IMG/VR virus record: IMGVR_UViG_3300009160_002242
Coordinates: 1 to 22,570 of that record
Strand: one strand, 5' to 3'
From: a virus
DNA: 22,570 bases
The position numbers and the translations under genes are program-made. How positions within the stretch are numbered: position 1 is the first letter of the stretch; each line of letters opens with the position of its first letter. Below are positions 593-20,448 of this stretch, one piece after another. The notes below the pieces were generated by a model. The model searched no databases and had not been told where the DNA came from. It saw only the letters and a list, made by a program, of their open reading frames with translations.

Positions 593-617
593 ATATTTAT
601 ATGTGTATATGAAATTA
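593..617 (+). repeat. 25-bp leader cassette repeat, copy 1
   Basis: Bases 593-617 are identical to 3269-3293. The block covers the TATTTATA element, the ATG and the first codons of two otherwise unrelated genes. The following codons of both genes also stay similar (leader peptides MKLLDIILEE and MKLQDILLEK). Confidence 0.85.
594..601 (+). promoter_or_regulatory. TATTTATA start-proximal element
   Basis: Exact TATTTATA, 7 bases before the ATG at 609, within a 25-base block repeated exactly at 3269-3293. Proposed phage promoter core (-10 like). The short distance would give a leaderless or nearly leaderless mRNA. Inferred from recurrence in this window. Confidence 0.5.
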
Positions 618-2363
618 TTAGATATTATATTGGAAGAAGAAAACACATCATTGGATGAAGGTTATAATGTGGTAACAAAGGAAGGTTTTTTAAATAAGAT
701 AAAAGAACTTTTTCCATATAAAGGAGGTTGTCTTTATGACTTTCCTAATTTAGAAGATTTTAGAAAAATAGCAACTGTAAATGCTCATTGTAATAAACAT
801 AACATTGATTTTCCTGTAAAGGCTGAAAATATCTCAAAAGGTAATATTGGTTCAGAAGGATGTGTTGAATGTAAAAAAGATAGAATCTTAAATAAAAGAA
901 ATTCAGAAGTAAATAATTATTATAGTAAGGCTGAGGAAATATGGAAAGATGAAAATGGAAATCCTTTATATATCTACAATAAATCGGGTTTAAGAAGATA
1001 TACAGGTATTAAAAATGAATTTGATTTTTATTGTCCTAAACTTGGTTCAAATAAAAAACCTCACGGTAAACAAACTATTACAAATCCAGCAAGTCATATA
1101 TATCGAGACTATAGATATGATAACTACCCATATGTTGGTTGTGAAAAATGTAGAGAAGAACAAGGAATAGTTAGACAATCATTGAGTAATCTTTCTCGTA
1201 GTGAATTCATTAAAAAAGTCAAAGAAAAGATGAAATTATACCATATCCCAATAAGTTGGTATGATTGGAAAAATATGGAATATGAAACCCCATTAAAAAA
1301 TGGTAAAATAAAATGTGTAAAACATAATCAAGAAATTTCAAGGGAAAAAGCTCAAACTTTTTATACTGGTACACCTTTGTGTCCCGAATGTAATAGAATA
1401 GCGGTTAAAGAAAAAAAATTCATGGATAAAGTCCGCAAACTCTATAATGATAGATTTGTTTTATTATCGGATTATATTGGAGGAACTTCGCCCGTTACAC
1501 TTGGTTGTACATTACACGGAAAAACCCCATATCCAATTGTATTTGCGAGCCCCTCATTAATTGGGAGTTCTACCAAAAAATACGGATCAATTGAATGTAA
1601 AGAATGTAAAAGAGTTAACCAACTAAATAAATTTAAAAATACAACTTATAATTTAAATAATGAAAGATTTAAAGATGAAAATGAAAAACCATATTCTTAT
1701 CCAAATCTTGATAGTGAATTTAAAAGAATGACCGATGATATTCAAATTGTATGTCACAAAATAGGTTCAAATGGTAGAGAGCATGGAATATTTCTACAAA
1801 CTCCCTCTAACCATTCTGCAGGACAAGGTTGCCCAATATGTCAAGAATCAAAAAATCAAATTCACATTAAAAATTTATTATCTGAAGAAGATTACGAATT
1901 TGAAACAGAAAAACAATTCAAAGAATTAGGTAATCAAAAGTTTGATTTTTATATACCTGAACCAGGATATGTTAATATCCTTATTGAATATGATGGTGAA
2001 CAACATTTTGAACCTAGGTTTGCTAAATCAGAATACACCAGGCAATTAAATTATAATATACTATATGAAAGTGATAATTTAAAAAACCAATTTATTAAAA
2101 CTAATAATCTTGGTTTGGGATTGATTCGTGTACCTTATACTTTGAAAAAGGGAACATATGATAAATTATTATTAGATGCATTAAAAAGTGTTGAAGCTAG
2201 GGAAATAAGACGTTTAGGTGATTATCCAGAAAGACAATTACCTAAAGAGGCTGTACATAAAGATAAAGTTGATTTAACTAAACCAATTCGTAGACCAATA
2301 CGAACGAACGAATCCAAATTATCGTTAATTGACACGGTAAACCAATTATATAACGATAAGTAG
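609..2363 (+). CDS. Zinc-ribbon repeat nuclease with N-terminal leader peptide
   Basis: A 584-aa protein if it starts at ATG 609. The frame extends to a TTG at 549, but that would bury the promoter-like element and the MKLLDIILEE leader shared with other genes. After the leader come about five treble-clef or zinc-ribbon-like units with paired C-x2-C and C-x-K-H / G-C motifs, spread over residues ~40-430 (for example GCVEC, GCEKC, LCPEC, ECKEC, GCPIC). The C-terminal domain (~445-530) has D446 in FDFY, then E460-Y-D-G-E-Q-H-F and a closing LIRVPY strand. This is the catalytic pattern of PD-(D/E)XK/VSR-like nucleases often found in phage homing endonucleases with zinc ribbons. It could be a free-standing homing nuclease or, given the leader, a virion-packaged nuclease that attacks host or competitor DNA. 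The basic tail after residue 530 has no recognised domain. Confidence 0.7.
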   Translation: MKLLDIILEEENTSLDEGYNVVTKEGFLNKIKELFPYKGGCLYDFPNLEDFRKIATVNAHCNKHNIDFPVKAENISKGNIGSEGCVECKKDRILNKRNSEVNNYYSKAEEIWKDENGNPLYIYNKSGLRRYTGIKNEFDFYCPKLGSNKKPHGKQTITNPASHIYRDYRYDNYPYVGCEKCREEQGIVRQSLSNLSRSEFIKKVKEKMKLYHIPISWYDWKNMEYETPLKNGKIKCVKHNQEISREKAQTFYTGTPLCPECNRIAVKEKKFMDKVRKLYNDRFVLLSDYIGGTSPVTLGCTLHGKTPYPIVFASPSLIGSSTKKYGSIECKECKRVNQLNKFKNTTYNLNNERFKDENEKPYSYPNLDSEFKRMTDDIQIVCHKIGSNGREHGIFLQTPSNHSAGQGCPICQESKNQIHIKNLLSEEDYEFETEKQFKELGNQKFDFYIPEPGYVNILIEYDGEQHFEPRFAKSEYTRQLNYNILYESDNLKNQFIKTNNLGLGLIRVPYTLKKGTYDKLLLDALKSVEAREIRRLGDYPERQLPKEAVHKDKVDLTKPIRRPIRTNESKLSLIDTVNQLYNDK

Positions 2364-2364
2364 A

Positions 2365-2372
2365 TATTTATA
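2365..2372 (+). promoter_or_regulatory. TATTTATA element, distal copy
   Basis: First of two exact TATTTATA copies between the nuclease stop and the ATG at 2398; 25 bases from the start codon. Two copies in tandem before one gene is unique in this window. Confidence 0.4.
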
Positions 2373-2383
2373 ATAAACACAGA

Positions 2384-2391
2384 TATTTATA
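2384..2391 (+). promoter_or_regulatory. TATTTATA element, proximal copy
   Basis: Exact TATTTATA, 6 bases before the ATG at 2398. Same geometry as at 594, 3270 and 9618. Confidence 0.5.
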
Positions 2392-2397
2392 TAACAT

Positions 2398-3060
2398 ATG
2401 AAAAGAATTATCAAATTAACAGAAGAACAATTAAGAAATATTGTTTCTAAAGTCATTAAAGAACAATCGGCACCAATGGGTAACCCTAATCAAATTACAC
2501 CACAAAAAAGTCCAAACATAAGTTGTATCGGTTTAAAATCACCTCAAACATACAAAGTGATTAAAGGGATTAATGGAGAAGAGTTTACATTTTTCAACAA
2601 CGGTAGATTTAAAGATGTGAGTGACGACAGTATGGGATTTTATGTATGTGGAGCTCAGGCTAATATCGTTAACTTAACCTACGATTCTAACCCAAAGGCC
2701 GTTAAATATTTCAACATGACCCCCCCACCAGTTGCAAAACCAAAAGTAAAATATGTTCCTAATGAGGTTGTACCACTTAAATTTGGTCAATCAGGAAACA
2801 ATATTAAAATGATACAGGCTTCTCTTGGAGTTAAACCTGATGGTTTATTTTACACAAATACTGATGCTGCAGTTAAAAAGTATATTCCTGAATACAATAG
2901 ACAAACAGGAGTTACCCAACAAATATTTGACAAGATATTGGGAGTTGTAGCAAAAAGAACACCAGTATCTCCAGTTAGTATGAAGGATATGCAAAATATG
3001 AATAATCCCGACACCGCATTAAGTAATAAAATATTGGGTAAAAACCAATTCAATTCATAA
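2398..3060 (+). CDS. Leader-peptide protein with PG-binding-like C-terminal domain
   Basis: A 220-aa protein. It opens with MKRIIKLTEEQLRNIVSKVI, a charged amphipathic leader of the T-E-x-Q-[LIV] type seen on other genes here, followed by K-E-Q. A Pro/Asn-rich linker follows. Residues ~40-105 form a small domain with aromatic residues and one Cys pair. Residues ~125-182 (LKFGQSG, IKMIQASLGVKPDGLFYTNT, AAVKKY) match the pattern of a PG_binding_1 domain and parallel the N-terminus of the endolysin at 12863. The tail is Asn/Met-rich. It is probably a virion-associated cell-wall-binding protein, though phages also use this fold for other purposes. Start set by the TATTTATA element 6 bases upstream. 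Confidence 0.6.
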   Translation: MKRIIKLTEEQLRNIVSKVIKEQSAPMGNPNQITPQKSPNISCIGLKSPQTYKVIKGINGEEFTFFNNGRFKDVSDDSMGFYVCGAQANIVNLTYDSNPKAVKYFNMTPPPVAKPKVKYVPNEVVPLKFGQSGNNIKMIQASLGVKPDGLFYTNTDAAVKKYIPEYNRQTGVTQQIFDKILGVVAKRTPVSPVSMKDMQNMNNPDTALSNKILGKNQFNS

Positions 3061-3065
3061 TTAAC

Positions 3066-3268: not shown

Positions 3269-3293
3269 ATATTTATATGTGTATATGAAATTA
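3269..3293 (+). repeat. 25-bp leader cassette repeat, copy 2
   Basis: Identical to 593-617; spans the promoter-like element, start codon and first three codons of the next gene. Confidence 0.85.
3270..3277 (+). promoter_or_regulatory. TATTTATA element
   Basis: Exact TATTTATA, 7 bases before ATG 3285 and 4 bases after the T-run of the terminator. A promoter here is logically required for the downstream gene, which supports promoter function for the motif. Confidence 0.55.
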
Positions 3294-3806
3294 CAAGATA
3301 TATTATTGGAAAAGTTAAGAGATATGGTATCAATACCTATCTATCATCATACAACTGAAGAACGTGCTTTGGGTATTATGAATGGTAATATGTTGGTAGG
3401 GTCAAAACAATATGAGGAGGTTATGAATTTGGATAGAACATTAAAACAATCCAAACATAAAACAATGGTTTCATTTACTCGTGATAAGAACTTTATACCG
3501 GATGGGTCTATTGGTAATTCTGGTGACGGTCCTCGTATTAAACCTGATATGTTGAACGTAATCTTCGTTGCAGACAGAAGTCGTCTTAAATCACGTTATA
3601 GGGTGGTTCCTTTTGATTATGGGACAATTGCTAATAAAGCTTGGATGGACCCTGTTCCACGTAGTCGTAAAAACCCTGAAGTAGAGGAAAGAGTATTGAC
3701 GGATAGAATATATCCATTGAGACAATACCTTACAAATATCATTTATACAGGTCAAGATCCTGAGGTACAAAAGAAGATAGATGAATATCTATCTGGAATT
3801 AAGTAA
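3285..3806 (+). CDS. Putative ADP-ribosyltransferase-like protein with leader peptide
   Basis: A 173-aa protein from ATG 3285. An in-frame ATG at 3237 lies inside the terminator hairpin and would precede the shared leader, so it is rejected. Residues 1-10 (MKLQDILLEK) are the leader. The body has Y20-H-H-T-T followed by a helix and 'GNML', a strand-like S63-F-T-R-D, a hydrophobic strand NVIFVAD, and E134-E-R-V-L. A Y-H-x-T start, an S-F-[ST]-R strand and a late E-E-R are the layout of several ART-fold phage proteins. If correct, the enzyme would use NAD+ to modify a host protein or nucleic acid. T4 Alt is a virion-packaged ART, which would fit the leader. Catalytic assignment is inference from motif order; a non-enzymatic role is possible. 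Confidence 0.5.
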   Translation: MKLQDILLEKLRDMVSIPIYHHTTEERALGIMNGNMLVGSKQYEEVMNLDRTLKQSKHKTMVSFTRDKNFIPDGSIGNSGDGPRIKPDMLNVIFVADRSRLKSRYRVVPFDYGTIANKAWMDPVPRSRKNPEVEERVLTDRIYPLRQYLTNIIYTGQDPEVQKKIDEYLSGIK

Positions 3807-3823
3807 TATTTATATCTAATGAA
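3804..3823 (+). repeat. 20-bp leader cassette repeat, type 2, copy 1
   Basis: Identical to 4341-4360, including the previous stop codon, the TATTTATA element and the ATG. Identity resumes in phase at 3832-3846 / 4369-4383, the bases coding for the T-E-S-Q leader. Confidence 0.85.
3807..3814 (+). promoter_or_regulatory. TATTTATA element
   Basis: Exact TATTTATA, starting directly after the previous TAA and 4 bases before ATG 3819. Part of a 20-base block (3804-3823) repeated at 4341-4360. Confidence 0.5.
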
Positions 3824-4343
3824 TATCCTCATAACAGAATCACAATATAAACTTATCACCGAAACTCGCCATGGGTTATTAAACTATTTGGTTAGAAAAA
3901 GTAAGGAATATACGGGGGTATTGTGGCCTGAATATGTTATTAGGGATTGGATGTATAAAAATACAAAGGAAGTGGGTCCTGATAATAATGTATATAAAAA
4001 ACTTGGCCAAACATATTTTGATAATTGGATTCAAAGATTTGGTAAAGGGTATTGGGAATTTAGAGTGTTGGATGTTTCAATAGATATTTTCATTGATGGA
4101 GATCAACAAGGATTAAAGAGTAAAATTGGTGGTAGTATTAATCAACAAGTACCTAACGATTCTGAAAGACATAATACACAACAATCCAAACTTGATACAA
4201 ATGGAATCTCTTCTGAACCTATTATTGTTTATTTAACAAAAGATGGTAAATACGATTTGGTTGAGGGGTGGCACAGAACGACAGCATCACTTAAGAAATA
4301 TGATAGATATAAACAGAATGCTTGGGTCTACATTAATTTTTAA
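3819..4343 (+). CDS. Leader-peptide protein with ParB-like C-terminal motif
   Basis: A 174-aa protein opening with MNILITESQYKLITE, a clear member of the T-E-S-Q leader group, with an I-T-E site at its end. The middle is aromatic-rich (YWEFRVLDVSIDIFIDGD) and contains an SERHNTQQSKL stretch with R and Q residues. The C-terminus has PIIVYL, then D-L-V-E149-G-W-H152-R153, matching the E-G-W-H-R of the gene at the left edge. This suggests a ParB/sulfiredoxin-like fold. Whether it binds DNA, cuts it or hydrolyses nucleotides cannot be told. Its promoter-like element abuts the previous stop codon, so it may have its own transcript. Confidence 0.6.
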   Translation: MNILITESQYKLITETRHGLLNYLVRKSKEYTGVLWPEYVIRDWMYKNTKEVGPDNNVYKKLGQTYFDNWIQRFGKGYWEFRVLDVSIDIFIDGDQQGLKSKIGGSINQQVPNDSERHNTQQSKLDTNGISSEPIIVYLTKDGKYDLVEGWHRTTASLKKYDRYKQNAWVYINF

Positions 4344-4360
4344 TATTTATATCTAATGAA
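4341..4360 (+). repeat. 20-bp leader cassette repeat, type 2, copy 2
   Basis: Identical to 3804-3823 and in the same relation to the next gene's stop, promoter-like element and start. Confidence 0.85.
4344..4351 (+). promoter_or_regulatory. TATTTATA element
   Basis: Exact TATTTATA, directly after the previous stop and 4 bases before ATG 4356. Confidence 0.5.
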
Positions 4361-5228
4361 GCTTCAGGTAACAGAATCACAATTAAAACTTATTGAACAA
4401 CAACAGTTAAATGAACTGAAGTGGATGGGTAATATTCAATCACATATTGATAGATTGGATATACCTTTAACTTCATCTATTGTAAACTACATATGGGGAA
4501 AACAAAGAGTAACAACATTTCATATAGGGGATGTTCATAGTATCAATAAGATTGCTAAAATGGTAGGTACAAGAAAGGCATTATCTACATTTAGATATAT
4601 GAATAAAAAGATGGTTAATGGAATTAAGGGAATACAAACTAGTGGAGGTATTATATTTCAAATTGAAGGAGATTTACAATTTGAAGCTCCTGGTGATATT
4701 ATGAGTACACCCGACGATTCGGGTAGAAGGTGGATTACTTTACATACATTACCAGATAAAATTAGAAATGAATATTATAAAGAATTTAAAGGACACAATG
4801 AATTTAATAATATAAACGAACCTAAAACCCTAATCAACTATTACAGATGGGTTGATAATTTTATTGAAGAACGTGCGAAAGAAATACGTGAATATTATTC
4901 AGATTTTAAAATACATAGAGAAGGTCTTTGGAATGAAACGGTTGTAAACAATATCCAAATTAAGGATATATTATGGAAAGAAGATATTGTGGGATTTTTA
5001 AATACATGGGAAACCGAAGAACAAAAAATAAAAGTACTTGAAGAAGTTGGTATAAAGTTAAGTTCAATATCAACGGGTACCGTTTATTTATCTGATGGTG
5101 GAAGTACATTTGGATTTAGAGATATTGACCCCGTTAGATGGGTCGAGAAAAGAGGAGGATTAACTGACTTTAAGAAATACGTAAATAAATTTCACAAAGA
5201 AAAAGAACCAAAAACAATATCCATATAA
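4356..5228 (+). CDS. Leader-peptide protein of unknown function
   Basis: A 290-aa protein with a leader MKLQVTESQLKLIEQQ of the T-E-S-Q type (L-I-E at residues 12-14). No family is recognised with confidence. Visible features are a stretch with small and basic residues (KMVGTRKALSTFRYM), a Gly/Ile-rich hairpin (GGIIFQIEGDLQFEAPGD), and the motif STPDDSGRRWITLH, whose D-D-S-G-R-R could be a catalytic or phosphate-binding loop. A second half of ~130 residues is charged and helical with conserved-looking Trp. The gene is single, followed by an A/T-rich gap, and carries the type-2 leader cassette. Confidence 0.55.
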   Translation: MKLQVTESQLKLIEQQQLNELKWMGNIQSHIDRLDIPLTSSIVNYIWGKQRVTTFHIGDVHSINKIAKMVGTRKALSTFRYMNKKMVNGIKGIQTSGGIIFQIEGDLQFEAPGDIMSTPDDSGRRWITLHTLPDKIRNEYYKEFKGHNEFNNINEPKTLINYYRWVDNFIEERAKEIREYYSDFKIHREGLWNETVVNNIQIKDILWKEDIVGFLNTWETEEQKIKVLEEVGIKLSSISTGTVYLSDGGSTFGFRDIDPVRWVEKRGGLTDFKKYVNKFHKEKEPKTISI

Positions 5229-6447: not shown

Positions 6448-6879
6448 ATGAGCAAAGTAAAAATTTCAACAGTAAAAGGTGATATGATTGCAGAATTATA
6501 TGACAATGAAACACCAATAACAACTGACAACTTCAAAAAATTAATTAATGAAGGTTTCTACAATGGGTTAAATTTCCATAGAGTATTGCCTGATTTTGTT
6601 ATCCAAGGTGGATGTCCAAATGGTACGGGTGCTGGTGGACCAGGATATAACATTCCTTGTGAAGTAAATGCCGAAAAACAATACCACGACAGAGGTGTAT
6701 TATCTATGGCACATGCTGGTAGAAACACAGGAGGTTCTCAATTCTTTATTTGCCATAGTCGTAATAACACTTCACATCTTGATAGAAATCATACTTGTTT
6801 TGGTAGAGTAATCGATGGATTAGACATAATTGATTTAATCCAACAAGGGGATAAAATAAATTCAATAGAAATAATTTAA
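6448..6879 (+). CDS. Cyclophilin-type peptidyl-prolyl isomerase
   Basis: A 143-aa single-domain cyclophilin that interconverts cis and trans X-Pro bonds. Compared with human CypA, the catalytic and pocket residues are present: R45 and F50/Q53 in FHRVLPDFVIQGG, M87-A-H-A, the GGSQFF block (S97-Q98-F99-F100), and H115 before F118-G. The CypA tryptophan position (W121) is His110, as in many bacterial cyclophilins. No signal peptide, so it acts in the cytoplasm or in the virion. Start ATG 6448 follows an A-rich leader, typical of Bacteroidota translation starts. It leads a tight cluster with the methyltransferase (4-base gap) and SGNH-like gene. It may help fold phage proteins or the glycan enzymes next to it. 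Confidence 0.93.
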   Translation: MSKVKISTVKGDMIAELYDNETPITTDNFKKLINEGFYNGLNFHRVLPDFVIQGGCPNGTGAGGPGYNIPCEVNAEKQYHDRGVLSMAHAGRNTGGSQFFICHSRNNTSHLDRNHTCFGRVIDGLDIIDLIQQGDKINSIEII

Positions 6880-6883
6880 TTTA

Positions 6884-7558
6884 ATGTTAGACGATAATTT
6901 TATATGGGGAGATGTTTCTGAAGTTTTTAAAAAATTAAATACGGAAGAATTTAATCTACATAACATTTACGAAAAATTTTTTACGGTTGAGGAAGGGGAC
7001 ATTGTTGTGGATATTGGAGCGTCAATTGGTCCATTTACATATTCAATATTGAAAAATAAACCAAAACATTGTTGGGTTGTGGAACCTTTAGATAATCAAT
7101 TTGAAGTGCTGAAACAAAATCTAATGGGTGGCCCTGTTTCATTTATTAAAGCTGCAATTACAGATATTAAAAACGTAAAAATTGAATGGGACGGAAATAT
7201 TGCATATCCAAGAACATTAACATTTAATGAGTTTATTACCGAAAATGGATTAAGTAAAATTGATTTTTTAAAAATTGATTGTGAGGGAGGTGAGTATGAT
7301 ATATTTTCAATTGAAAATTTTGAATTTCTAAAAACAATACCTAAAATTGTAACTGAATTTCACCTTGGTATGGAAAATGATATAAAATCTTCAACAATAC
7401 TAAAAAGTAAATTTAGATATTTTAGAGATTATCTATTAAATAATTTTAATAATTTTGAGGTCTATTCAATTGATGGGGTTGATATAAAGTGGAATTTATA
7501 TAATGAAGAATTTCTTGATTATTATACGGGTATAATTATTTATATTGATAATAGATAA
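6884..7558 (+). CDS. FkbM-family methyltransferase
   Basis: A 224-aa SAM-dependent methyltransferase. Motif I is V42-D-I-G-A-S-I-G-P-F; an acidic residue follows in WVVEPLD (ribose-binding E67). The FkbM signature appears as IDFLKIDCEGGEYDIF (about 126-141), followed by hydrophobic strands. FkbM enzymes usually O-methylate sugars or polyketides. Beside an SGNH-like protein and a sugar kinase, methylation of a surface or virion glycan is the best guess. Gaps of 4 and 3 bases to its neighbours indicate one transcript. Confidence 0.88.
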   Translation: MLDDNFIWGDVSEVFKKLNTEEFNLHNIYEKFFTVEEGDIVVDIGASIGPFTYSILKNKPKHCWVVEPLDNQFEVLKQNLMGGPVSFIKAAITDIKNVKIEWDGNIAYPRTLTFNEFITENGLSKIDFLKIDCEGGEYDIFSIENFEFLKTIPKIVTEFHLGMENDIKSSTILKSKFRYFRDYLLNNFNNFEVYSIDGVDIKWNLYNEEFLDYYTGIIIYIDNR

Positions 7559-7561
7559 TAA

Positions 7562-8536
7562 ATGTTTGAATTAGAAAATTACGAAATATATGTTGAGGAT
7601 AACATGCATAAAATAAAATATTGGATTAGAAATAATTCAGATAAAGAGGTGGAAACTATCCTCAATTTTATTCAATTACCTTTTAGAACATACACCCGTT
7701 TATTCCCATTGAAACTTGGTCCAAATGGTAGTTATTGGGTAGCAACAACATTAAGGGAAATGATGCCCGACCCAAATTGTGCGAAATATTGGGGAATGTT
7801 TTGTGGAGTTGATTTAGAAATAAAAGTTAATGGTGAATGTTTATATAAAATTAGTTTACCTTGGACAATTACAAATAATTTTGTAAGAAAAGGTATTGAT
7901 TTTAATTCAACAATTCATAAATCGAAGTTTTGGTTAATTGGAGATTCTCACGCTAATTATAATACCACGGCACCTTTAGAGCATGTAACCACCGAAAAGT
8001 ATGACATTGTACCTGTATCAGTACAGGCTTTATCATTAAGTAGATTTTTAAATAGTGATTGGAAAATGTTTTTTAACACAATACCAATTTGGGAAAATGA
8101 TGTAATTTCAATTGAATTGGGGGATGTTGATTTAAGAATAGCATTATTTAGAAAATCTAAAGAAAAGAACATTCCCATTGAAAAATTGGTAGGTGATTTA
8201 GTTAATGACTACTTTGAGTTTATTAAAGAATTAAAAAAATTATATAATAATAAAATCATTATTCAAATCCCAAATAGGACAATAAAAGATAATTGGGATA
8301 AAGATAATAGGATTATGTCCACAGTGGACGTTAGGGTCAAATTATGGGAGGATTTTAACGAGTTTATAAGAATATTAGGAAAAATCAATAACATTGAAAT
8401 TTGGGACTATAAAACGATGTATAAGGATATTGACGGATCAACAATAAATGATGTCTTAATTGAGGGTGATCTTCACCTTAAAGTTCATGAACCAATGTTA
8501 ATTGATTTAAAGAACAAAATAAATACCTACCTATAA
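7562..8536 (+). CDS. SGNH/GDSL-like hydrolase with N-terminal beta domain
   Basis: A 324-aa protein. Residues 1-115 look like a beta-rich accessory domain. The second part begins KFWLIGDSHANYN, with the block I G127-D-S129-H, then GD near residue 188 (ELGDVDL), an Asn in IQIPNRT, and near the C-terminus GDLHLKVH (D303, H305). These fit an SGNH esterase or acyltransferase, with Ser129 as nucleophile and D303/H305 completing the triad. The 'GDSH' variant is seen in glycan-modifying SGNH domains. Substrate unknown; likely acetylation or deacetylation of a sugar. The stop lies 1 base from that of the convergent kinase. Confidence 0.7.
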   Translation: MFELENYEIYVEDNMHKIKYWIRNNSDKEVETILNFIQLPFRTYTRLFPLKLGPNGSYWVATTLREMMPDPNCAKYWGMFCGVDLEIKVNGECLYKISLPWTITNNFVRKGIDFNSTIHKSKFWLIGDSHANYNTTAPLEHVTTEKYDIVPVSVQALSLSRFLNSDWKMFFNTIPIWENDVISIELGDVDLRIALFRKSKEKNIPIEKLVGDLVNDYFEFIKELKKLYNNKIIIQIPNRTIKDNWDKDNRIMSTVDVRVKLWEDFNEFIRILGKINNIEIWDYKTMYKDIDGSTINDVLIEGDLHLKVHEPMLIDLKNKINTYL

Positions 8537-8537
8537 A

Positions 8538-9329
8538 TTAATAAATTTTTGGTAATAAATCATGGTCATCTAACGACGCCTGTTTTTTCCATGGAGTGGA
8601 TACCCCTCTTTTAGAAACAACAATTGACGCCATTTTATTAGCGTAAATAATTGATTGTTTCACATCATTAGTTTCCAAATATTTTAATGTGAAAGACGCA
8701 GTGAATGTATCACCAGCTCCACTAACATCAATAGTTTCTTTAGGGTCAGGAGAAGGGAATATTTCACCCATATATTGAGCACCTTTAGAACCCAATGTAA
8801 TTAATAACTTCTGTTCTGATTTTTCATTTAACTCTTGTTTATGGAATTCAGATTCATTTAATTTAATAAAATTAAAACAAGCTGTAATATCTGGACCAAT
8901 TTTCTTCTTGGTATCCATTATGATAAATTTGGAGTGATAAGCAATTTCCTTTAAGATATTATAAGATAAAAAACCTTTATTGTAATCACTAATAATAACC
9001 GCATCAGATTCTTTAATTTGGTCAATAATATCATCAGTTAATATCAATTCATCTACATTGTTTTCACCCTCATCAATTCTAATAAACATGTGATTAGTTT
9101 TGTAATCCACGTACCTTGTTTTGGTAATTGGTTGTTTTTGATGGATAAAGTTAATCTCATTTTTATTATCAAATGGTTTCAAGTTCTCAACCGCATTTCC
9201 TGCCATACCTGGATTTTCATCTGTGAACAATGGATTAAAAACGGGGACAGGAGCCTCAGGACTCATCCTCTTAGTTTCACCATAAACGAACACATCTTTA
9301 CCTAATTCTCCTATAACTGTTATCTTCAT
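8538..9329 (-). CDS. PfkB-family sugar kinase resembling HldE/RfaE kinase domain
   Basis: A 263-aa kinase. MKITVIGELGKDVFVYG, then T19-K-R-M-S-P-E-A-P-V-P-V, is the substrate-loop signature of HldE/RfaE D-glycero-beta-D-manno-heptose-7-phosphate kinases. IISDYNKG and N158-E-S-E161 follow, and DVSGAGDT contains the anion hole and catalytic D207. At 263 residues it is shorter than the ~310 of the HldE kinase domain, and the usual Gly-Gly-Ala-Ala-Asn substrate motif is altered to GMAGNAVEN. No adenylyltransferase domain is present. It probably phosphorylates a heptose or related sugar for LPS-like glycans. The start is ATG at 9329; the divergent neighbour begins at 9386. Confidence 0.85.
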   Translation of the reverse strand: MKITVIGELGKDVFVYGETKRMSPEAPVPVFNPLFTDENPGMAGNAVENLKPFDNKNEINFIHQKQPITKTRYVDYKTNHMFIRIDEGENNVDELILTDDIIDQIKESDAVIISDYNKGFLSYNILKEIAYHSKFIIMDTKKKIGPDITACFNFIKLNESEFHKQELNEKSEQKLLITLGSKGAQYMGEIFPSPDPKETIDVSGAGDTFTASFTLKYLETNDVKQSIIYANKMASIVVSKRGVSTPWKKQASLDDHDLLPKIY

Positions 9330-9364: not shown

Positions 9365-9372
9365 TATTTATA
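9365..9372 (+). promoter_or_regulatory. TATTTATA element
   Basis: Exact TATTTATA 13 bases before ATG 9386, in the divergent gap with the sugar kinase. Confidence 0.5.
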
Positions 9373-9385: not shown

Positions 9386-9550
9386 ATGACTAAGAAACTT
9401 AAAATCACAGAATCACAACTTAAAATGTTGGTTGAAAACAACAAAAAGACAGTTCAAGTGGAAAATGTGGTAGAACCTAAAAAAGAGGAATTACCTCAAG
9501 TAAACGAAGCAGTAGAGAAGATAAAGAGTGAGTTCAAGAGATACTTGTAA
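9386..9550 (+). CDS. 54-aa leader-peptide protein
   Basis: ATG 9386 opens a 54-aa frame ending in TAA: a leader MTKKLKITESQLKMLVE of the T-E-S-Q group, followed by only ~37 charged residues (Lys/Glu/Val-rich, helical, ending FKRYL). It is the shortest carrier of the leader, almost the leader plus a short helix. It has its own TATTTATA element upstream and its own terminator downstream, so it is a single-gene unit. T4 internal proteins are also small and charged, which makes it a good candidate for an internal or packaged protein. Confidence 0.7.
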   Translation: MTKKLKITESQLKMLVENNKKTVQVENVVEPKKEELPQVNEAVEKIKSEFKRYL

Positions 9551-9617: not shown

Positions 9618-9625
9618 TATTTATA
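9618..9625 (+). promoter_or_regulatory. TATTTATA element
   Basis: Exact TATTTATA 5 bases before ATG 9631 and 16 bases after a strong terminator, so transcription of the next gene must restart here. Confidence 0.55.
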
Positions 9626-9630: not shown

Positions 9631-11484
9631 ATGAAGATTTTAGAAGTTTTATTGGAGGAATTATTACTTGAGTTAAGTGGTAAAGAGATATATCAAAAAT
9701 ATTACTCAAAAATACCATATGAGACTTTTTTAGATATTGTAATGGCCGACCCTAAGACCAATATTGATGGTACGGGTGAATTATTATCATTAGGAAAATA
9801 TGCTAAAATGTTATTGTCTTTTTATCAAAAAGGAACATTAAGAGATGACGATTTAGTAAAGGCCGAAGAATACTTAGGTTATGTGTATCTACATAACGTT
9901 GCAGTGGAAGTTGGTAAAATAAGACAACTTGGTGACTTATACAATATTGTTAAACAATATATTATTGAGGATACGTTAGATTTTAAATTGATATTAGATT
10001 CGTTGATTTTAGGTACCGATTATAAATTATTACACACTGGTGAAGATTGGACATTTTACCAACCATTGACTGAGAAGGGTTCGGCTTATTTAGGTGTTAA
10101 CACAGAGTGGTGTACCACTTGGGGGGAATATTGTTTGAATAAAAAATACAGAGATAGAACAAATTATTTTCCATCACACAATACTAAAGGACCTTTATTT
10201 ATTATAATTAATAAAACCAATCCATTAGATAAATATCAATTCCATTTTGAGACAAATCAATATATGAATAAGGATGATAAGAGAATTAACTTAACTGAAT
10301 TTTGGTTTGGTAAAGATGAGATTAAATATTATTTCTTTCCGTCATTAGTTAGAGAAACATCGGAACAAGAAGTAAAAAGTGAAATTGCAAGAATATCTAT
10401 TTTACCAGATGAAGATGGAATGGAGGTAATTAAAAAATCAATAGGCACTATTGACAATCCATTAGTGGTAGCAATTTTAAATTTGGATAATGATGCGTTA
10501 GAAGATTTAATTAATGATGACACTAGAAATGGTTCTGTGGATGTATATAATGGAAGATTAGTAATACAAGTTGATGATATTAATATTGGTGAAGCCGCTG
10601 GTGTTAACTACAGTATTAACCAATATAGAGGTGAAGCTAGTAATGGTTGGGAATGGGTACATAATGATTTGGAAAACAAATATTATGAACAAGAAGAGTA
10701 TTCTTCAGATATTGAGGGAATTTTTACAAATTATTATAATGAGAATAAAAATGAATTGTTAAATGAATTAGGGGTTCAAAGTATTGAGGAATTTACTAGT
10801 GATTATTTTCCGAATTATTCATCAAATGAAGAACTAAAAGATTATTTTGTTGATGATGTAACCGATTTAAGTTATAGAAGTTATGAAGAGGAAAATGATA
10901 GGGAAGCGGATGATATTGAAAAATATTTATCCTTCGGTAATGATGATGAATTTAATTTTTCTGTAGTTCATTTAGTTCGTTTTTTAATCAAAAAAGAAAT
11001 TAAATATATTGGGGGAGATGAATGGCCACTACAAGATTTTTTAGATAGTTATATAAGTCAATATAATATAACCACAGAAATAGACGAGCCAGTTTATAAT
11101 TTTGAAATAAAATATCCAAAATACGGTGACAATAATTATATAACAAGAGAAACTAAAAAGTATTTTGATAAAATAATATCTGACCCAAATACAAGTCGTC
11201 ATTGTATTGAACTTAGAAAAAAATTAAACAACATTATTGATAAATTTTTTATTGGTACTGGTGGACAACAAGATAGATTTGAGAATGAACATGTGATTGT
11301 GAGAATTAAATCTATGTCAATTGATTGTGATAACGAATCAATTAAAATTGATTATGAGAACAAAGATAATAAACAAAATTTTTATAACAAATCAGTAAAA
11401 ATAGATAATTTAGTTTCATACTTAACTAATCATCAATTGAATTTGAATGAAAATAAATTAAAGTTAATGTCTTTTATAAAATGA
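9631..11484 (+). CDS. Large 'WCT' domain protein with leader peptide
   Basis: A 617-aa protein opening with MKILEVLLEELLLEL, the aliphatic leader type (L-L-E, L-E-L). Residues ~130-215 form a domain I call WCT: D139-W-T-F-Y-Q-P-L-T, then L-G-V-N-T-E-W160-C-T-T, GPLFIIINK, and YQFHFETNQYM. This arrangement occurs in many phage proteins of unknown activity; the conserved W-C-T and F-H-F suggest an enzyme. The - strand gene at 13734 has a related domain. The rest (~220-617) is very acidic and helical, without recognised domains. The next gene overlaps by ATGA, so they are translationally coupled. Confidence 0.65.
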   Translation: MKILEVLLEELLLELSGKEIYQKYYSKIPYETFLDIVMADPKTNIDGTGELLSLGKYAKMLLSFYQKGTLRDDDLVKAEEYLGYVYLHNVAVEVGKIRQLGDLYNIVKQYIIEDTLDFKLILDSLILGTDYKLLHTGEDWTFYQPLTEKGSAYLGVNTEWCTTWGEYCLNKKYRDRTNYFPSHNTKGPLFIIINKTNPLDKYQFHFETNQYMNKDDKRINLTEFWFGKDEIKYYFFPSLVRETSEQEVKSEIARISILPDEDGMEVIKKSIGTIDNPLVVAILNLDNDALEDLINDDTRNGSVDVYNGRLVIQVDDINIGEAAGVNYSINQYRGEASNGWEWVHNDLENKYYEQEEYSSDIEGIFTNYYNENKNELLNELGVQSIEEFTSDYFPNYSSNEELKDYFVDDVTDLSYRSYEEENDREADDIEKYLSFGNDDEFNFSVVHLVRFLIKKEIKYIGGDEWPLQDFLDSYISQYNITTEIDEPVYNFEIKYPKYGDNNYITRETKKYFDKIISDPNTSRHCIELRKKLNNIIDKFFIGTGGQQDRFENEHVIVRIKSMSIDCDNESIKIDYENKDNKQNFYNKSVKIDNLVSYLTNHQLNLNENKLKLMSFIK

Positions 11485-11819
11485 GAATATTAATATCAGA
11501 AGGTCAATTAGAGAATTTAAAGAAGTTGGTTAATGAAGGAGAAGATATCGACGAGAGAAGTAGAAGTTTTGCGTTTACAAGAAAGAAAAGATTATTTAGT
11601 AAATCAGAAAGAATGTCTAATCCTTTGAGATATAAATTCGCCGATAGACTTGAGGAAGAAAAACCTTTAACGGACAAACAAATTAAAAGTATTGAGGATT
11701 TAAATAAAGACTCTAAATTTTTAACTTGTAAAAACTGCAGAAAGAAGTTTACACAAACAACACATAAGGGTAAGAAATCGTTACCAATTTGTCCTTGGTG
11801 TGGAACTCACAATAATTAA
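11481..11819 (+). CDS. Leader-peptide protein with C-terminal zinc ribbon
   Basis: A 112-aa protein. The leader MRILISEGQLENLKKLVNE is a variant of the T-E-S-Q type (S-E-G-Q). A basic, Arg/Ser-rich middle follows (RSRSFAFTRKKR). The C-terminus is a zinc ribbon with C83-x2-C86 and C104-x2-C107. Its ATG overlaps the stop of the WCT gene (ATGA), so it is coupled to it and lacks its own TATTTATA. It could be a nucleic-acid-binding partner of the WCT protein. Confidence 0.65.
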   Translation: MRILISEGQLENLKKLVNEGEDIDERSRSFAFTRKKRLFSKSERMSNPLRYKFADRLEEEKPLTDKQIKSIEDLNKDSKFLTCKNCRKKFTQTTHKGKKSLPICPWCGTHNN

Positions 11820-13733: not shown

Positions 13734-15443
13734 TTAATTCATTTCTTTAATATCTACATCCGTTTCAGGGTCAAAATCACTAATTCTTACACTATCGTCT
13801 TCGTCATTTTCATCCTTAGGTTGTATTTTAGTTTTTAACATTTCAAATTTTGCCGCGGTAACAAAGTGACCACTTGCATTATCATTCTCTTCGATTGGAA
13901 ATACACAGTATAAACTTGTATTATCTGGATTACCACCTGTTGTGTATGTCTCAACAATGTAAGTTTTACCTTCATTGTCATTATATAAATCAGTTCCCAT
14001 TTGAACATAGTTAGGTTCAAAAACTATACTATCTTGTTTAACCCACGATGCTTTGTCGTTATAATATAAACCAAATTTTTTCGTTTTTTTACTTTCGTAT
14101 AAAACTAAATTTTTGTTATCTATACTAACTCTAGCAACTATAAACTCATTCGACATTAAATGTTCATAGATATAACCGACTCCAACATCTCCCAATTTTT
14201 GATTAACAGCAGCACCTCTTTCATCTAATCTTAAACCTAAAGACCTAAGTGTGTTATCTAATAACTTAAATTCATTACCAACTTTTCTAATTTCACTCAT
14301 CAACTCATATGATTGATATTTGTCAATCACATTTCTTGCCGTTGTTGAAATAATATATAATGTTCTAAGATCAGTATCCATTCGTTGCCAAGACTTTGCA
14401 GTTGAAATATTCCCACCTCTATCGATGTAAGCTTTTTTCAAATCTCTTCTAACCATTGCAAATTCTAATTTATTTCCTGGTGTTTCATTAAGTCTATTAA
14501 CAATGTCCCTATCAAATAACTCACTCTCATCGTATTTTATATATTTGAATAAATCTCTATGTTCAGCAAGTTGTGGGTAAATTTGAGTAACTTCTTCCCA
14601 TGTTTTAGGTTCATCACCATCATTTAACATACTGGTCATTTTAAACCCAGTATATGGATTACTTCTATAGTCTTTATCTCTTTCACAATATTGTAGTGCA
14701 CATAAATAATATTTATGAACATTAGGATTTGGATTATCTATAGGATTTTTAGATTCATCAATAACAAACCAAAACGTTCTTACTGGTCTATATGTCCCCC
14801 ATAAATTACCACGAGAATCATTAGTATTTCTACCTGTTACACACCATTGTGCTCCACCTAATTTTTTTGTTGTTGATTGTTGATAAAATCCGTATTTAAT
14901 TGCTTCTCTAGCGTCAGAAACATAATGTACTTTAAATCCTTCTTCATTGACCACACTATTACGTTCACTTAACCATAATTTATATGATGCTTTAATTTTC
15001 TCAGGTGTGGAATCTAATTTACCTTTGAATTCATCTTCTTCATCATTACCATTTAAGGTTGCATCTCTAAATTCGTCAAGTAAATCTTCAAATTGTTCTA
15101 AAGTATAACGACCTGGGTCTTTAACGTCATCAAAATTAAACGGAACCAATTTGAACATAGGTTGTCCGTTATTTTGTTTTTGCACCCCATTATTGTCCAA
15201 ATCTGGTACCTTAACACCTAAACCATGTACACCATCCCAACGATGTAGGAACGAAAGAACACCAGGATTGTTTAATGTTAACCCTTTTTGCTTTTCAAAA
15301 AATAACTGTAAATTCTCTTCCGCTCTTTTAATTTGTTGAGGGGTTGGTTCATCACCATACCATTTTTTTAATAGGAAAGCAAATTGCTTCTTATTTTTTA
15401 CTTCCTCAACTAGTACGTCGTACACTAAATCGGTAATATTCAT
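13734..15443 (-). CDS. Second 'WCT' domain protein with leader-like N-terminus
   Basis: A 569-aa protein. The N-terminus MNITDLVYDVLVEEV has the hydrophobic/acidic pattern of the aliphatic leader (L-V-E at 11-13), though less closely. Residues ~165-270 carry the WCT domain in diverged form: FKVHYVSDAREAIKYG, L-G-G-A-Q-W200-C-V-T, then FWFVIDESKNP and YYLCALQYCER. In the protein at 9631 the corresponding elements are W-C-T-T, FIIINK and YQFHFE. Long flanking regions have no recognised domain; the last ~60 residues are acidic. Start ATG 15443 is preceded by TATTTATG, a one-mismatch element. It is probably a paralogue in function of the 9631 protein. Confidence 0.62.
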   Translation of the reverse strand: MNITDLVYDVLVEEVKNKKQFAFLLKKWYGDEPTPQQIKRAEENLQLFFEKQKGLTLNNPGVLSFLHRWDGVHGLGVKVPDLDNNGVQKQNNGQPMFKLVPFNFDDVKDPGRYTLEQFEDLLDEFRDATLNGNDEEDEFKGKLDSTPEKIKASYKLWLSERNSVVNEEGFKVHYVSDAREAIKYGFYQQSTTKKLGGAQWCVTGRNTNDSRGNLWGTYRPVRTFWFVIDESKNPIDNPNPNVHKYYLCALQYCERDKDYRSNPYTGFKMTSMLNDGDEPKTWEEVTQIYPQLAEHRDLFKYIKYDESELFDRDIVNRLNETPGNKLEFAMVRRDLKKAYIDRGGNISTAKSWQRMDTDLRTLYIISTTARNVIDKYQSYELMSEIRKVGNEFKLLDNTLRSLGLRLDERGAAVNQKLGDVGVGYIYEHLMSNEFIVARVSIDNKNLVLYESKKTKKFGLYYNDKASWVKQDSIVFEPNYVQMGTDLYNDNEGKTYIVETYTTGGNPDNTSLYCVFPIEENDNASGHFVTAAKFEMLKTKIQPKDENDEDDSVRISDFDPETDVDIKEMN

Positions 15444-15929: not shown

Positions 15930-16295
15930 TTAATTGAATAAACTACTAAGGAAACTAGGTTGCATTTTATCCCATAGTTTATATAAATCAGGTCTTTTTG
16001 ATTTCATAATATCTACAGTATTTGTACCCCAAACCCCATCTCTTGACATGTAATCAATACCTAATAAAGTTTGTAATTTAATAATTGCATCAGACGTTGA
16101 TGAATTTCTACCTGTTTTACCATCAACAACTAATTGTGTAAATGACTTATCCCCTTTAAAAATTTCATTCAAAAATTTTTGAACTGTCATTGTGAGTTTT
16201 CTATTCTCATCTCCTTCTTGTATTTCTTTGGTTTCAGTAATTTGACTATCAATAATCTTCTTAATTTGACTTTCTGTGAATATAAATTTTTTCAT
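15930..16295 (-). CDS. Leader-peptide protein with PG-binding-like domain
   Basis: A 121-aa protein. MKKFIFTESQIKKIIDSQITE is a clear T-E-S-Q leader, ending in I-T-E. Residues ~35-100 have the layout of a PG_binding_1 domain, with hydrophobic LQTLLGI followed by RDGVWGTNTVDIMK (the D-G-x-W-G-x-x-T signature). A short tail PSFLSSLF closes it. It resembles the 2398 protein in combining the leader with this fold. It is probably virion-associated, binding peptidoglycan or another partner. It follows the GAF-like gene by 6 bases, so it shares that transcript. Confidence 0.65.
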   Translation of the reverse strand: MKKFIFTESQIKKIIDSQITETKEIQEGDENRKLTMTVQKFLNEIFKGDKSFTQLVVDGKTGRNSSTSDAIIKLQTLLGIDYMSRDGVWGTNTVDIMKSKRPDLYKLWDKMQPSFLSSLFN

Positions 16296-16939: not shown

Positions 16940-16947
16940 TATAAATA
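16940..16947 (-). promoter_or_regulatory. TATTTATA element (- strand)
   Basis: Exact TATTTATA on the - strand, 11 bases before the ATG at 16928. It heads the - strand unit 16928-15930. Confidence 0.5.
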
Positions 16948-17158: not shown

Positions 17159-17710
17159 ATGAGTAAGATAATTAACTTTTTTGGTGGTCCTGGTATTGGT
17201 AAATCCACACAAGCGTCAGGTTTATTTACCGAGATGAAAAAACACCACATGAGTGTTGAATACACATATGAGTTCCCAAAAGAGGTTGCGTGGGAAGGAA
17301 ATGTATCCCAATTGAAGGACCAATTCTTTATTACCGCAAATCAACATAGAAACATTAGTCGTCTTTATGGAAAAGTTGATTACATCATTGTCGATTCACC
17401 TATAGTGTTGGGGTGTTTTTACGAACAACGATACGGAGAGGGTTACCCTGCATCTCATTACGGAATGTCAGGTTTAGGTAATTTTCTTTGGACATTATTC
17501 AAACAATATGACAACATAAACATATTATTAAAAAGAAATGATGAAACATATGATACAAATGGTAGACTTCAGAACTTACAGGAAGCTATTGAAATTGATA
17601 ATGATATTAAGGAAACATTGGATGTTAACAGCATACCTTATAGCGAATTTATTGTTAATAATAATACTGCTTTGGAGATTTACGAGTATTTAAAAGAAAG
17701 CAATTTATGA
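17159..17710 (+). CDS. P-loop ATPase/kinase (AAA_28-like)
   Basis: A 183-aa protein. The Walker A motif G9-G-P-G-I-G-K15-S-T follows a first strand. Further motifs are EYTYEFPKE, a DQF helix, and D-Y-I-I-V-D-S-P-I as a Walker B-like strand. This pattern fits phage P-loop proteins annotated as AAA_28/NadR-like kinases, which phosphorylate nucleosides or related small molecules. The substrate is not readable from the sequence. Its stop overlaps the start of the nuclease (ATGA), so the two are coupled. Confidence 0.75.
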   Translation: MSKIINFFGGPGIGKSTQASGLFTEMKKHHMSVEYTYEFPKEVAWEGNVSQLKDQFFITANQHRNISRLYGKVDYIIVDSPIVLGCFYEQRYGEGYPASHYGMSGLGNFLWTLFKQYDNINILLKRNDETYDTNGRLQNLQEAIEIDNDIKETLDVNSIPYSEFIVNNNTALEIYEYLKESNL

Positions 17711-18366
17711 GGAAAAATTTAGGTTCTTACGTGGGGATTACATTAATGACTATTATGTTATTAACAATCACAGTGTTCACTTTCGCACAAGACGTGGTAG
17801 TGTTAAAACACACAAATTACACTTCACATTATTCAAAATCAAAGAAATATCCTGTGATGGTAGAGTGGTGGATTACAAAGGCAAAAATAGGTTGTCCCAC
17901 CCCATTGGCAAGAAAAGACAATTTCAAACCCGACCCAAAATTACCAAATGAAACTGATTTAATTGAGGATTACAAGGGTTCAGGAACAGATAGAGGACAT
18001 ATGATGCCCGCAGCTGAGAACTTATGTCAAACACCTGCAGTTCAAGATGAGTGTTTTTATTTTTCAAATATGGCGGCACAATATCACTCATTAAACGCTG
18101 GAGATTGGAAAAGTGTCGAGATGTTGGAAAGACAAATATCGTTAGAAAATGACAGTGTTAAAGTTTGGTGTGGTAATTTTGGTGAAGCTAAACGTATAGG
18201 TAAAGTTGCTGTTCCAACTAATTGTTGGAAGGTTATATATGTGGTTAAAACTAAAGAATGGTTATGTTTTTTGTTTGACAATAATACATCAAAACCAGAC
18301 GGTATTAATAACAATAAAGTTGATAAATCTGATATTGAAAAATTAACACATTTTAAATTTAAATAA
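17707..18366 (+). CDS. Secreted DNA/RNA non-specific endonuclease
   Basis: A 219-aa protein with an N-terminal signal peptide: MRKNLGS, then a hydrophobic run (~9-27) and a likely cleavage after FTFA-Q. The mature part is an Endonuclease_NS (Serratia nuclease type) domain. The motif T-D95-R-G-H98-M-M-P provides the general base. N121 (FSNMAAQ), N130 and E138 follow with spacings of 9 and 8, the same as in Serratia nuclease (N110, N119, E127). It would degrade DNA and RNA in the periplasm or outside the cell, perhaps to feed nucleotide supply, reduce lysate viscosity or destroy incoming DNA. Coupling with the kinase fits nucleotide recycling. Confidence 0.9.
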   Translation: MRKNLGSYVGITLMTIMLLTITVFTFAQDVVVLKHTNYTSHYSKSKKYPVMVEWWITKAKIGCPTPLARKDNFKPDPKLPNETDLIEDYKGSGTDRGHMMPAAENLCQTPAVQDECFYFSNMAAQYHSLNAGDWKSVEMLERQISLENDSVKVWCGNFGEAKRIGKVAVPTNCWKVIYVVKTKEWLCFLFDNNTSKPDGINNNKVDKSDIEKLTHFKFK

Positions 18367-18575
18367 TGGTCCCTAAAGAATTGGTAAATTATCAAGACAA
18401 ATTATACTATGTATATAAAAAAATGAAACCTCATCAAATTAAAGATGGGTACATTAATGATATAAAAGAACATTTAAGATGTGATGTTGTTGTTAGAAAT
18501 AAACATAACAACGACGATACTTTCTTATTTTTAATTGAAATTCCTGAAGCGGAGATTGTAAAAGATTTGTTATAG
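18366..18575 (+). CDS. Small protein of unknown function
   Basis: A 69-aa protein whose ATG overlaps the nuclease stop by one base (TAATG), so it belongs to the same operon. It is charged with a central beta-like pair (CDVVVRNKHNNDDTFLFLIEIPE). No signal peptide, so it would stay in the cytoplasm. One possibility is an immunity protein for the nuclease, but nothing in the sequence shows that. Its stop directly abuts the convergent gene's stop. Confidence 0.6.
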   Translation: MVPKELVNYQDKLYYVYKKMKPHQIKDGYINDIKEHLRCDVVVRNKHNNDDTFLFLIEIPEAEIVKDLL

Positions 18576-19329: not shown

Positions 19330-19347
19330 GGTTTCTTTGTCGTTTTA

Positions 19348-19355
19348 AATAAATA
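19348..19355 (-). promoter_or_regulatory. TATTTATT variant element
   Basis: One mismatch from TATTTATA, 18 bases before the - strand ATG at 19329. Weak. Confidence 0.25.
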
Positions 19356-19371
19356 CTCTTGTAGGAGTTAT

Positions 19372-19412
19372 AAAATAGAAAAGGGGATAAGTTTTTTATT
19401 TCTTAACCCCTT
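19372..19412 (-). terminator. Terminator of the Nmad1 gene (- strand)
   Basis: AAGGGGaTAAG / CTTAaCCCCTT (19381-19391, 19402-19412; one mismatch) around TTTTTTATTT. On the - strand the stem is followed by TTCTATTTT. It lies 23 bases past the stop of the 19436 gene. Confidence 0.75.
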
Positions 19413-19435
19413 ATTTGATTGTTATTTGTTTTGGG

Positions 19436-19795
19436 TTATTTCCCCCATTTTTCGTTTTTAACCAATTGGGCAATGATGGAATATACAGAAAGGTCTTGGT
19501 AGGTGTCGTCCACAACCTCTCCTACGTTATCCTGACGACCCAAAACGACGAGTTGTTTGATTCTTTGTATCTTATCGTTCATTCTGAACCAAAGACCCAT
19601 TTGAGACAATTTACGGTCTTCCTCCTTACTTAAATCCTTACCTAACGCAATGTTATCAGGACCGTAATTGGATTGTTTTCTACAAAAAGTTTCGTATTGG
19701 TCCCTCATTATTCTTTTGAATTCTTTGGTCATTTCAGGGTATTTCTCTTCAATTTCTTTGATAACCGAATTTACTTGTGGTTTATCTTCTGACAT
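19436..19795 (-). CDS. DUF1599/Nmad1 nucleotide-modification domain protein
   Basis: A 119-aa protein matching the DUF1599 (nucleotide modification associated domain 1) pattern: a helix ending in K40-x2-N-Y-G45, then R71-M-N-D-K-I-Q-R-I, and D97-T-x-x-D-L-S-V-Y-S-I-I. The acidic residues and Lys are the expected active-site positions of this all-alpha NTP-pyrophosphatase-like fold. Such proteins are linked to modified bases in phage DNA. No other base-modifying gene is visible in the window. Confidence 0.8.
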   Translation of the reverse strand: MSEDKPQVNSVIKEIEEKYPEMTKEFKRIMRDQYETFCRKQSNYGPDNIALGKDLSKEEDRKLSQMGLWFRMNDKIQRIKQLVVLGRQDNVGEVVDDTYQDLSVYSIIAQLVKNEKWGK

Positions 19796-19843
19796 ATTTT
19801 ATCTATTTATTATAATATAATGAAAAATAAGGGTAAAACCAAA

Positions 19844-19851
19844 TATTTATA
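19844..19851 (+). promoter_or_regulatory. TATTTATA element
   Basis: Exact TATTTATA, 15 bases before ATG 19867. Confidence 0.5.
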
Positions 19852-19866
19852 TAAAAATATATCCAA

Positions 19867-20112
19867 ATGGCGTCTAAGAAATATCAAGAAATGCAGGCTT
19901 CAGGTGAAACCGCGAAAACACAACAACCTAAACATAAACAACTTATTAAGATGTTGACTTTCAGAGTTGTACCGGCATATTATAAAGAAATCGAAAAGGT
20001 TGCTAATCATCAAGATAAAACTGTATCTAAATTAATTAGAACGTATATCAAAGAAGGTATGAAAAGAGATGGTGAATTAACTGATAGAGAAGAAAAAAGC
20101 ATCGGTGTATAA
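19867..20112 (+). CDS. Ribbon-helix-helix DNA-binding protein
   Basis: An 81-aa protein. A basic, flexible N-terminus precedes MLTFRVVPAYYKEIEKVAN and SKLIRTYIKEGM. This is the layout of a ribbon-helix-helix (Arc/CopG) fold: a strand (LTFRV), helix, turn with T-V-S-K, second helix. It would bind DNA as a dimer and act as a regulator. The next gene follows 6 bases later. Confidence 0.7.
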   Translation: MASKKYQEMQASGETAKTQQPKHKQLIKMLTFRVVPAYYKEIEKVANHQDKTVSKLIRTYIKEGMKRDGELTDREEKSIGV

Positions 20113-20118
20113 TAAATT

Positions 20119-20448
20119 ATGGAAAAACAAATTATTACCGAAAATCAGGTAAAAGATATATTAGATAAAGTTATAATGGAACAAACCTCTAAGGTTTCTC
20201 GCAATGAGTTCAGTAGAGTTCAGTTTAAAATTGAGGAATTACAAAACTCACTTAATGAAACTGTTAAAGAATTAAGAAAATTGGAAGACTCTATACCAGG
20301 TGGGTTACAACCACTTACAAAATCAAGAGTTTCTATAATTTCATCAAATTTAATCAACTCACAAAAGGTATTGTCAATATTGAAAGATAAGGTTAGACAA
20401 TATAAGCGTAGTTTATATGATCAAAGTATTGAAGAAAAGAAAAAATAG
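20119..20448 (+). CDS. Leader-peptide coiled-coil protein
   Basis: A 109-aa protein opening with MEKQIITENQVKDILDKVI, a T-E-N-Q variant of the leader, ending in I-M-E-Q, very like I-K-E-Q in the 2398 protein. The rest is two long amphipathic helices with heptad-like Leu/Ile spacing (FKIEELQNSLNETVKELRKL and VLSILKDKVRQYKRSL), ending in a lysine-rich tail. It is probably a coiled-coil or helical hairpin. Co-transcribed with the RHH gene (6-base gap). Confidence 0.65.
   Translation: MEKQIITENQVKDILDKVIMEQTSKVSRNEFSRVQFKIEELQNSLNETVKELRKLEDSIPGGLQPLTKSRVSIISSNLINSQKVLSILKDKVRQYKRSLYDQSIEEKKK

Follow-up and report, generated by a model that had tools for sequence, protein, structure and literature searches.

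Interchangeable N-terminal leaders on largely unrelated proteins of a viral DNA fragment and its phage relatives probably direct these proteins into the phage head

Our study analyzed the full 22,570-base IMG/VR record IMGVR_UViG_3300009160_002242 (the window), a fragment of a tailed-phage genome in which eleven genes begin with a short N-terminal leader peptide of one of two types. An initial annotation had listed these eleven N-termini, and all of them were found with the sequences and positions it gave. The aliphatic leaders are MKLLDIILEE of g2 (609-638, + strand; gene 609-2363), MKLQDILLE of g4 (3285-3311, +; gene 3285-3806), MKILEVLLEE of g14 (9631-9660, +; gene 9631-11484), and MNITDLVYDVLVEE of g18 (15402-15443, − strand; gene 13734-15443). 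The leaders of the second type, here called T-E-x-Q and given up to their predicted cleavage site, comprise a long form, MKRIIKLTEEQLRNIVSKVIKE of g3 (2398-2463, +; gene 2398-3060); two short forms, MNILITESQYKLITE of g5 (3819-3863, +; gene 3819-4343) and MKLQVTESQLKLIE of g6 (4356-4397, +; gene 4356-5228); MTKKLKITESQLKMLVE of g13 (9386-9436, +; gene 9386-9550), a protein that is mainly leader followed by a short charged tail; the T-E-x-Q-like MRILISEGQLENLKKLVNE of g15 (11481-11537, +; gene 11481-11819); MKKFIFTESQIKKIIDSQITE of g20 (16233-16295, −; gene 15930-16295); and MEKQIITENQVKDILDKVIME of g29 (20119-20181, +; gene 20119-20448). The start of g1 (2-490, +) falls beyond the window edge, and because its ortholog in the related phage G001 has the aliphatic N-terminus MNLINTLYE↓TVLDLH (the arrow marks the predicted cut, here and below), the count rises to at least twelve.

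The bodies behind these leaders had been described as unrelated, which is mostly the case; the exception is the pair of ParB-like bodies of g1 and g5, which are homologous (27.5%, E=1e-6). The functions first proposed for the bodies fared unevenly. The nuclease label holds for g2, an HNH-type endonuclease-like protein (phrog_559, 7e-34), and the ParB-like label of g5 rests on a weak match (2e-4). The match behind the zinc-ribbon label of g15 lies below the cut-off, and an ADP-ribosyltransferase-like fold for g4 was not supported: the protein has no sequence relative in the PDB, and its AlphaFold model, with a predicted local distance difference test score (pLDDT) of 51, gave no Foldseek match at E<=0.001. 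The body of g29 is coiled-coil-like. A [GA]xxWC[TV][TA] motif was observed in several large leader proteins, namely g14 (WCT) and g18 (WCVT) in the window and proteins of L048, L070, L119, L134, and L022; the leader is aliphatic on g14, g18, and the L048 protein and long on that of L134. Homology between g14 and g18 was considered and rejected; they have WC[TV]T in common, and their similarity is not significant.

Relatives of the window were retrieved through g18 (L001-L004), and include G004 (335,630 bases), G002 (97 kb), G003, and G001; no relative of g18 was found among cultured phages. Special attention was given to whether the leaders are a genuine N-terminal feature. A regular expression for the T-E-x-Q type, [ILVF][TSK]E.[QDE][LIVYF]..[LIVM], which was written after seeing the data, gave seven N-terminal and no internal matches in the window (p=4.9e-10) and ten N-terminal matches against nine internal ones in 93,170 positions of G004 (p=4.9e-10), with a similar N-terminal enrichment in G001, G002, and G003. 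A profile made only from the leaders of other phages also found N-terminal matches in the window, where g3 scored 35.2, and in G004, while shuffled N-termini gave none. The initial annotation had pointed to an [LIV]-x-E triplet at or just after the leader. Counted as [LI]-x-E with its Glu at residues 12-25, the triplet follows all seven T-E-x-Q leaders of the window (p=1.7e-6) and all 13 of G004 (p=1.9e-11), compared with 15% of the other G004 proteins; a wider range of 6-25 was dropped as partly circular, because the leader's own I-T-E matches it. The aliphatic type is looser, and its N-terminal enrichment is 8.7-fold in the window (p=6e-6) and 2.1-fold in G004 (p=2.5e-3).

Many of these genes lie behind a common upstream box. 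Of all 8-mers upstream of G004 genes, TATTTATA shows the strongest enrichment (29.5-fold; 56 genes, against six for its reverse complement), and there it precedes the terminase, portal, protease, and scaffold genes as well as 16 of 30 leader genes, compared with 41 of 344 others (p=3e-7). In the other leader-bearing contigs, the shorter TATTTAT precedes 52 of 76 leader genes and 237 of 757 others (p=6e-10). In the window, the box stands directly before g2 (594-601), g3 (2384-2391), g4 (3270-3277), g5 (3807-3814), g6 (4344-4351), g13 (9365-9372), and g14 (9618-9625), all on the + strand, and g15, g20, and g29 belong to units that it heads. Further + strand copies begin at 2365, 12841, and 19844, the last of which (19844-19851), upstream of g28, leads the unit of g29; one copy lies on the − strand at 16940, and the box upstream of g18 is the variant TATTTATG. 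Its place before head genes suggests that TATTTATA may be a late promoter.

The head genes of the relatives are of the T4 kind. G004 encodes proteins that match Portal_T4 (3e-78), the Gp23-type capsid protein (2e-72), and Peptidase_S77 (3e-20; 5e-21 in another search), to which the T4 prohead protease gp21 belongs. The initial annotation had asked for such a protease, and relatives of the window do encode it: Peptidase_S77 was matched in 33 of 49 leader contigs, including all 11 of those of at least 240 kb, against 3 of 21 random viral contigs chosen with an arbitrary 15-mer. G004 also carries a Ribosomal_S21 gene (122155-122346, −; domain match at 122185-122331, E=5e-12) within its terminase-capsid region; the position of this reverse-strand gene between the portal and protease genes places the relatives among the bS21 phages, for which freshwater Bacteroidetes hosts have been predicted (PMC9723584). 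Their capsid proteins link the leader phages to the cultured Flavobacterium phage immuto, and their hosts are probably Bacteroidota.

The site at which the leaders end agrees with the site at which the capsid protein would be cut. In 19 capsid proteins of leader phages we found the propeptide site [FHYV]L[IL][NY]E↓[AS], and this site (LINE↓A) corresponds in position to the FLTE↓A cut of T4 gp23; the I/L-x-E rule is common to it and to the leaders. It has been reported that gp21 of T4 cuts after L/I-X-E and that the first ten residues of the internal protein IPIII suffice for packaging, residues 4 and 7 serving targeting and residues 8 and 10 processing (PMC9026906). The aliphatic leaders, with an L-x-E end near residue 10, resemble those of T4 gp24 (MAKINELLRE), Alt, and IPIII (MKTYQEFIAE) in length and pattern, a likeness too short for significance; the T-E-x-Q leaders have no resemblance to them. 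Two further leader-like motifs were seen within proteins: one inside an acidic core-like protein (G004 219153-220397, L017) and the other, in L177 (7329-8282), at the extreme C-terminus of a protein from the head region whose N-terminus bears an aliphatic leader. Taken together, we consider it highly probable that the leaders are propeptides similar to the capsid-targeting sequence (CTS) of T4, expanded and modular, which would be processed by the prohead protease and whose bodies would be packed in the head.

The spread and anatomy of the long leader provide more evidence on this point. We define the long form as MKK[IV]I[RK]LTESDL...VIxE↓, of which a degenerate DNA pattern covered the first 12 residues only. 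This pattern occurs in at least 120 stretches of viral contigs, while a codon-permuted control gave no match, and some 85,000 cellular genomes (257 Gb) gave two, one on a phage-like contig and one outside called genes. Among the matches listed, the 116 complete bodies fall into 91 clusters without detectable similarity; the leader is also found on other domains in related phages, a check that the initial annotation had proposed, and this diversity rules out that it is a part of one domain common to all these proteins. Conservation, in the same set, extends over residues 1-22 and stops just past the Glu of V-I-x-E, with about 0.5 bit left at residue 24. Beyond the letters that were searched, Glu22 is present in 112 of the 128 listed leaders, I, L, or V at residue 20 in 124, and the L/I-x-E ending in 108; residues 17-18 are mostly basic, and residues 19-20 hydrophobic. 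A profile of the leader adds 38 leaders outside the searched spelling, with 121 N-terminal and six internal matches. Three of these six sit directly after a Met, which makes it probable that their annotated starts lie too far upstream.

From its sequence, T-E-S-D may act as a helix N-cap, with residues 12, 15, 16, 19, and 20 forming one hydrophobic face. Such an N-capped helix resembles a protein-binding element, and it is conceivable that the leader, with its [LI]-x-E end belonging to the helix, is never cleaved and instead docks late proteins on a partner outside the virion (for example RNA polymerase, ribosome, or replication compartment), where they would be gathered; the bS21 gene of G004 fits this, as these phages may also modify translation. 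We regard this as very unlikely: it leaves unexplained why conservation stops after the Glu of a capsid-like I-x-E site, why homologous bodies with differing leaders keep an x-x-E end, and why the leaders are linked to S77. A cleaved capsid-targeting propeptide remains our preferred explanation, and L-T-E↓S within the leader is a possible second cut site, with which one body family that begins directly after MKYLITE is compatible.

Natural exchanges at the junction between leader and body were found repeatedly. In g20 and its G002 counterpart, 206 bases that cover the upstream region and 27 codons are 90% identical and the 3' flanks are 96% identical, but the bodies between them are unrelated; the body of g20 is instead homologous to an L104 protein that bears the long leader. 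In L038 and L128, the upstream region and the body are near-identical but the starts differ, MKKIIRLTESDLTRIVR in one and MNKSYSKLRHIQEANQILEKRMLNEKKQYLNEG in the other, each joined to RVIKE↓Q. The B15 body family carries a long, short, or aliphatic leader depending on the phage, the YMFFSNL and DKIS families likewise occur with different leader types, and the homologous g1 and g5 have an aliphatic and a T-E-x-Q leader, respectively. In G002, g15 has an extra zinc-ribbon segment inserted directly behind its leader. A third leader type, like KLRHIQEANQILEKRxLNE or EEIxRIKxxM, was observed in L128 (3942-4484, −), where it also ends in [LIV]-x-E, in G004 (40623 and 319736), and in G002 (49742).

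It is important to consider that the shared N-termini could merely accompany recombination at a cassette in which promoter and start are conserved, without any function of the peptide. The box and the leader do often travel together, and there are swaps at the junction. However, codons at the invariant leader residues vary as broadly as the background while the residues stay fixed, which argues for selection on the peptide, and distinct leader sequences share the same kind of end site; we therefore consider this origin extremely improbable. For the capsid-targeting explanation, these exchanges have a more specific consequence. The initial annotation had suggested that each of the two leader types might have a destination of its own. 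This is not supported, since homologous bodies bear either type, and the interchange of types argues for one address. Its capsid-targeting proposal itself withstood those refuting tests that sequence analysis could address, with the modular leader, the protease of the relatives, and the cleavage rule matching that of the capsid protein in its favor.

In the sequence of events that we propose, the leader, an amphipathic helix that in its long form would be preceded by a short strand and N-capped, would dock its protein on the scaffold or core of the prohead late in infection. A gp21-type protease would then cut after the Glu of [LI]-x-E, in the same wave as the capsid-protein cut LINE↓A, and the freed body would remain in the head as it fills with DNA. 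Ejection together with the DNA would probably follow for some of the bodies, such as the nuclease-like and ParB-like ones, and all leader types, whether aliphatic, T-E-x-Q/D in its short or long form, or the third type, would appear to serve the one address. Docking on the core, cleavage, and retention in the head are what the comparison of sequences suggests; injection and an effector role are suggested more weakly. A related explanation is that the prohead protease does process the leaders, but as propeptides of minor structural proteins of the head, where they would mainly time assembly or folding instead of acting as address tags; the bodies would then remain part of the shell or core without being injected. 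The leader families YMFFSNL and GSRGSY, which adjoin the capsid gene and are widely kept, fit this, as does gp24, the vertex protein of T4, which is made with a propeptide of this kind. On the other hand, 91 unrelated bodies of patchy occurrence and in many cases modest size, swapped behind their leaders, fit cargo better, and we consider this explanation unlikely.

Several observations weigh against packaging of the leader proteins as head cargo. The leader system is described here from gene sequences, and the 22.6-kb window holds no head genes, so that the protease is seen in relatives only; Peptidase_S77 was not matched in two leader contigs of more than 170 kb (G014, 214 kb; G036, 171 kb). 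The aliphatic leaders are weakly defined, functions are recognizable for few bodies, and the structure models of g4 and g18 (pLDDT 48 for the latter) are both poor. The long form is almost absent from phage immuto, and the system is thus not a general feature of its clade. Finally, apart from its end the long leader shows no recognizable similarity to the T4 CTS, and tblastn searches with it against the cultured phages of INPHARED and against plasmids gave no match, although short queries may be missed and the searches had no positive control.

Other features of the window and its relatives were also recorded. A second shared N-terminus, M..(P/D)FKF[FL]xG, occurs in 14 of 374 G004 proteins (with nine internal matches) and in 15 of 117 G002 proteins (with none), at G004 3-17 kb (L006) and 303 kb and at G002 76-95 kb (L026-L027). 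Because none of these proteins has the TATTTATA box upstream, they probably form a different, non-late class. Positions 20918-22168 of the window encode an N-acetylglucosamine (GlcNAc)-type glycosyltransferase whose closest cultured relatives are in Xanthomonas and Stenotrophomonas jumbo phages (46-49% identity). A cyclophilin, an FkbM methyltransferase, a PfkB-type carbohydrate kinase, and a DNA/RNA non-specific endonuclease with a hydrophobic N-terminus are encoded at 6448-9329 and 17707-18366.

For phages that have not been cultured, it is rarely known which proteins enter the cell with the DNA. Should the leader mark head cargo, candidate injected anti-defense and host-takeover factors could be listed straight from the sequences of large metagenomic phages by searching for it, and the few internal proteins of T4 would be a single instance of a cargo system that is far larger and swaps fast. 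More broadly, large T4-superfamily phages, probably of Bacteroidota, would load each virion with dozens of fast-exchanged cargo proteins through several interchangeable, portable leader types that one core and one protease recognize, and most of this cargo would be injected to act on the next host. We give this wider picture an even chance; if it is true, the leader labels injected proteins genome-wide, and the sequence of an uncultured phage reveals its injected arsenal.

No description of these leaders was found in the open-access papers searched, and several known systems are comparable. The parts consulted of the study of Chen et al. (2022) on bS21 Bacteroidetes phages describe the portal, reverse-strand S21, protease, and capsid genes together, as in G004 and many leader phages, and do not mention the leaders (PMC9723584). 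The closest likeness is to IPI, IPII, IPIII, and Alt of T4, where a short, conserved N-terminal leader with an L/I-x-E end precedes diverse, unrelated bodies (PMC3012670, PMC9026906), and the portal, Gp23, and gp21-family protease have their counterparts in leader-phage genomes. In contrast, T4 has a handful of leader proteins, whereas one 335-kb genome (G004) has about 26; in the leader phages the leaders come in several types that interchange on homologous bodies, and one of these, 22 residues long, is unlike the T4 CTS; their hosts are probably Bacteroidota; and the T4 late promoter TATAAATA differs from their TATTTATA box. In phiKZ and SPN3US, many head proteins are cut after a Glu in a short motif and large sets of proteins lie inside the head (PMC9026906, PMC10052503); phiKZ uses an S/A-x-E motif and a distant protease, whereas the leader phages have a Pfam S77 protease, a T4-type capsid, and a short conserved leader. 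In phage P1, the N-terminal 30 residues of DarB suffice to localize a foreign protein to the capsid, and its authors reported no consensus among the Dar N-termini (PMC9024508), whereas the leader described here is conserved over more than 100 proteins.

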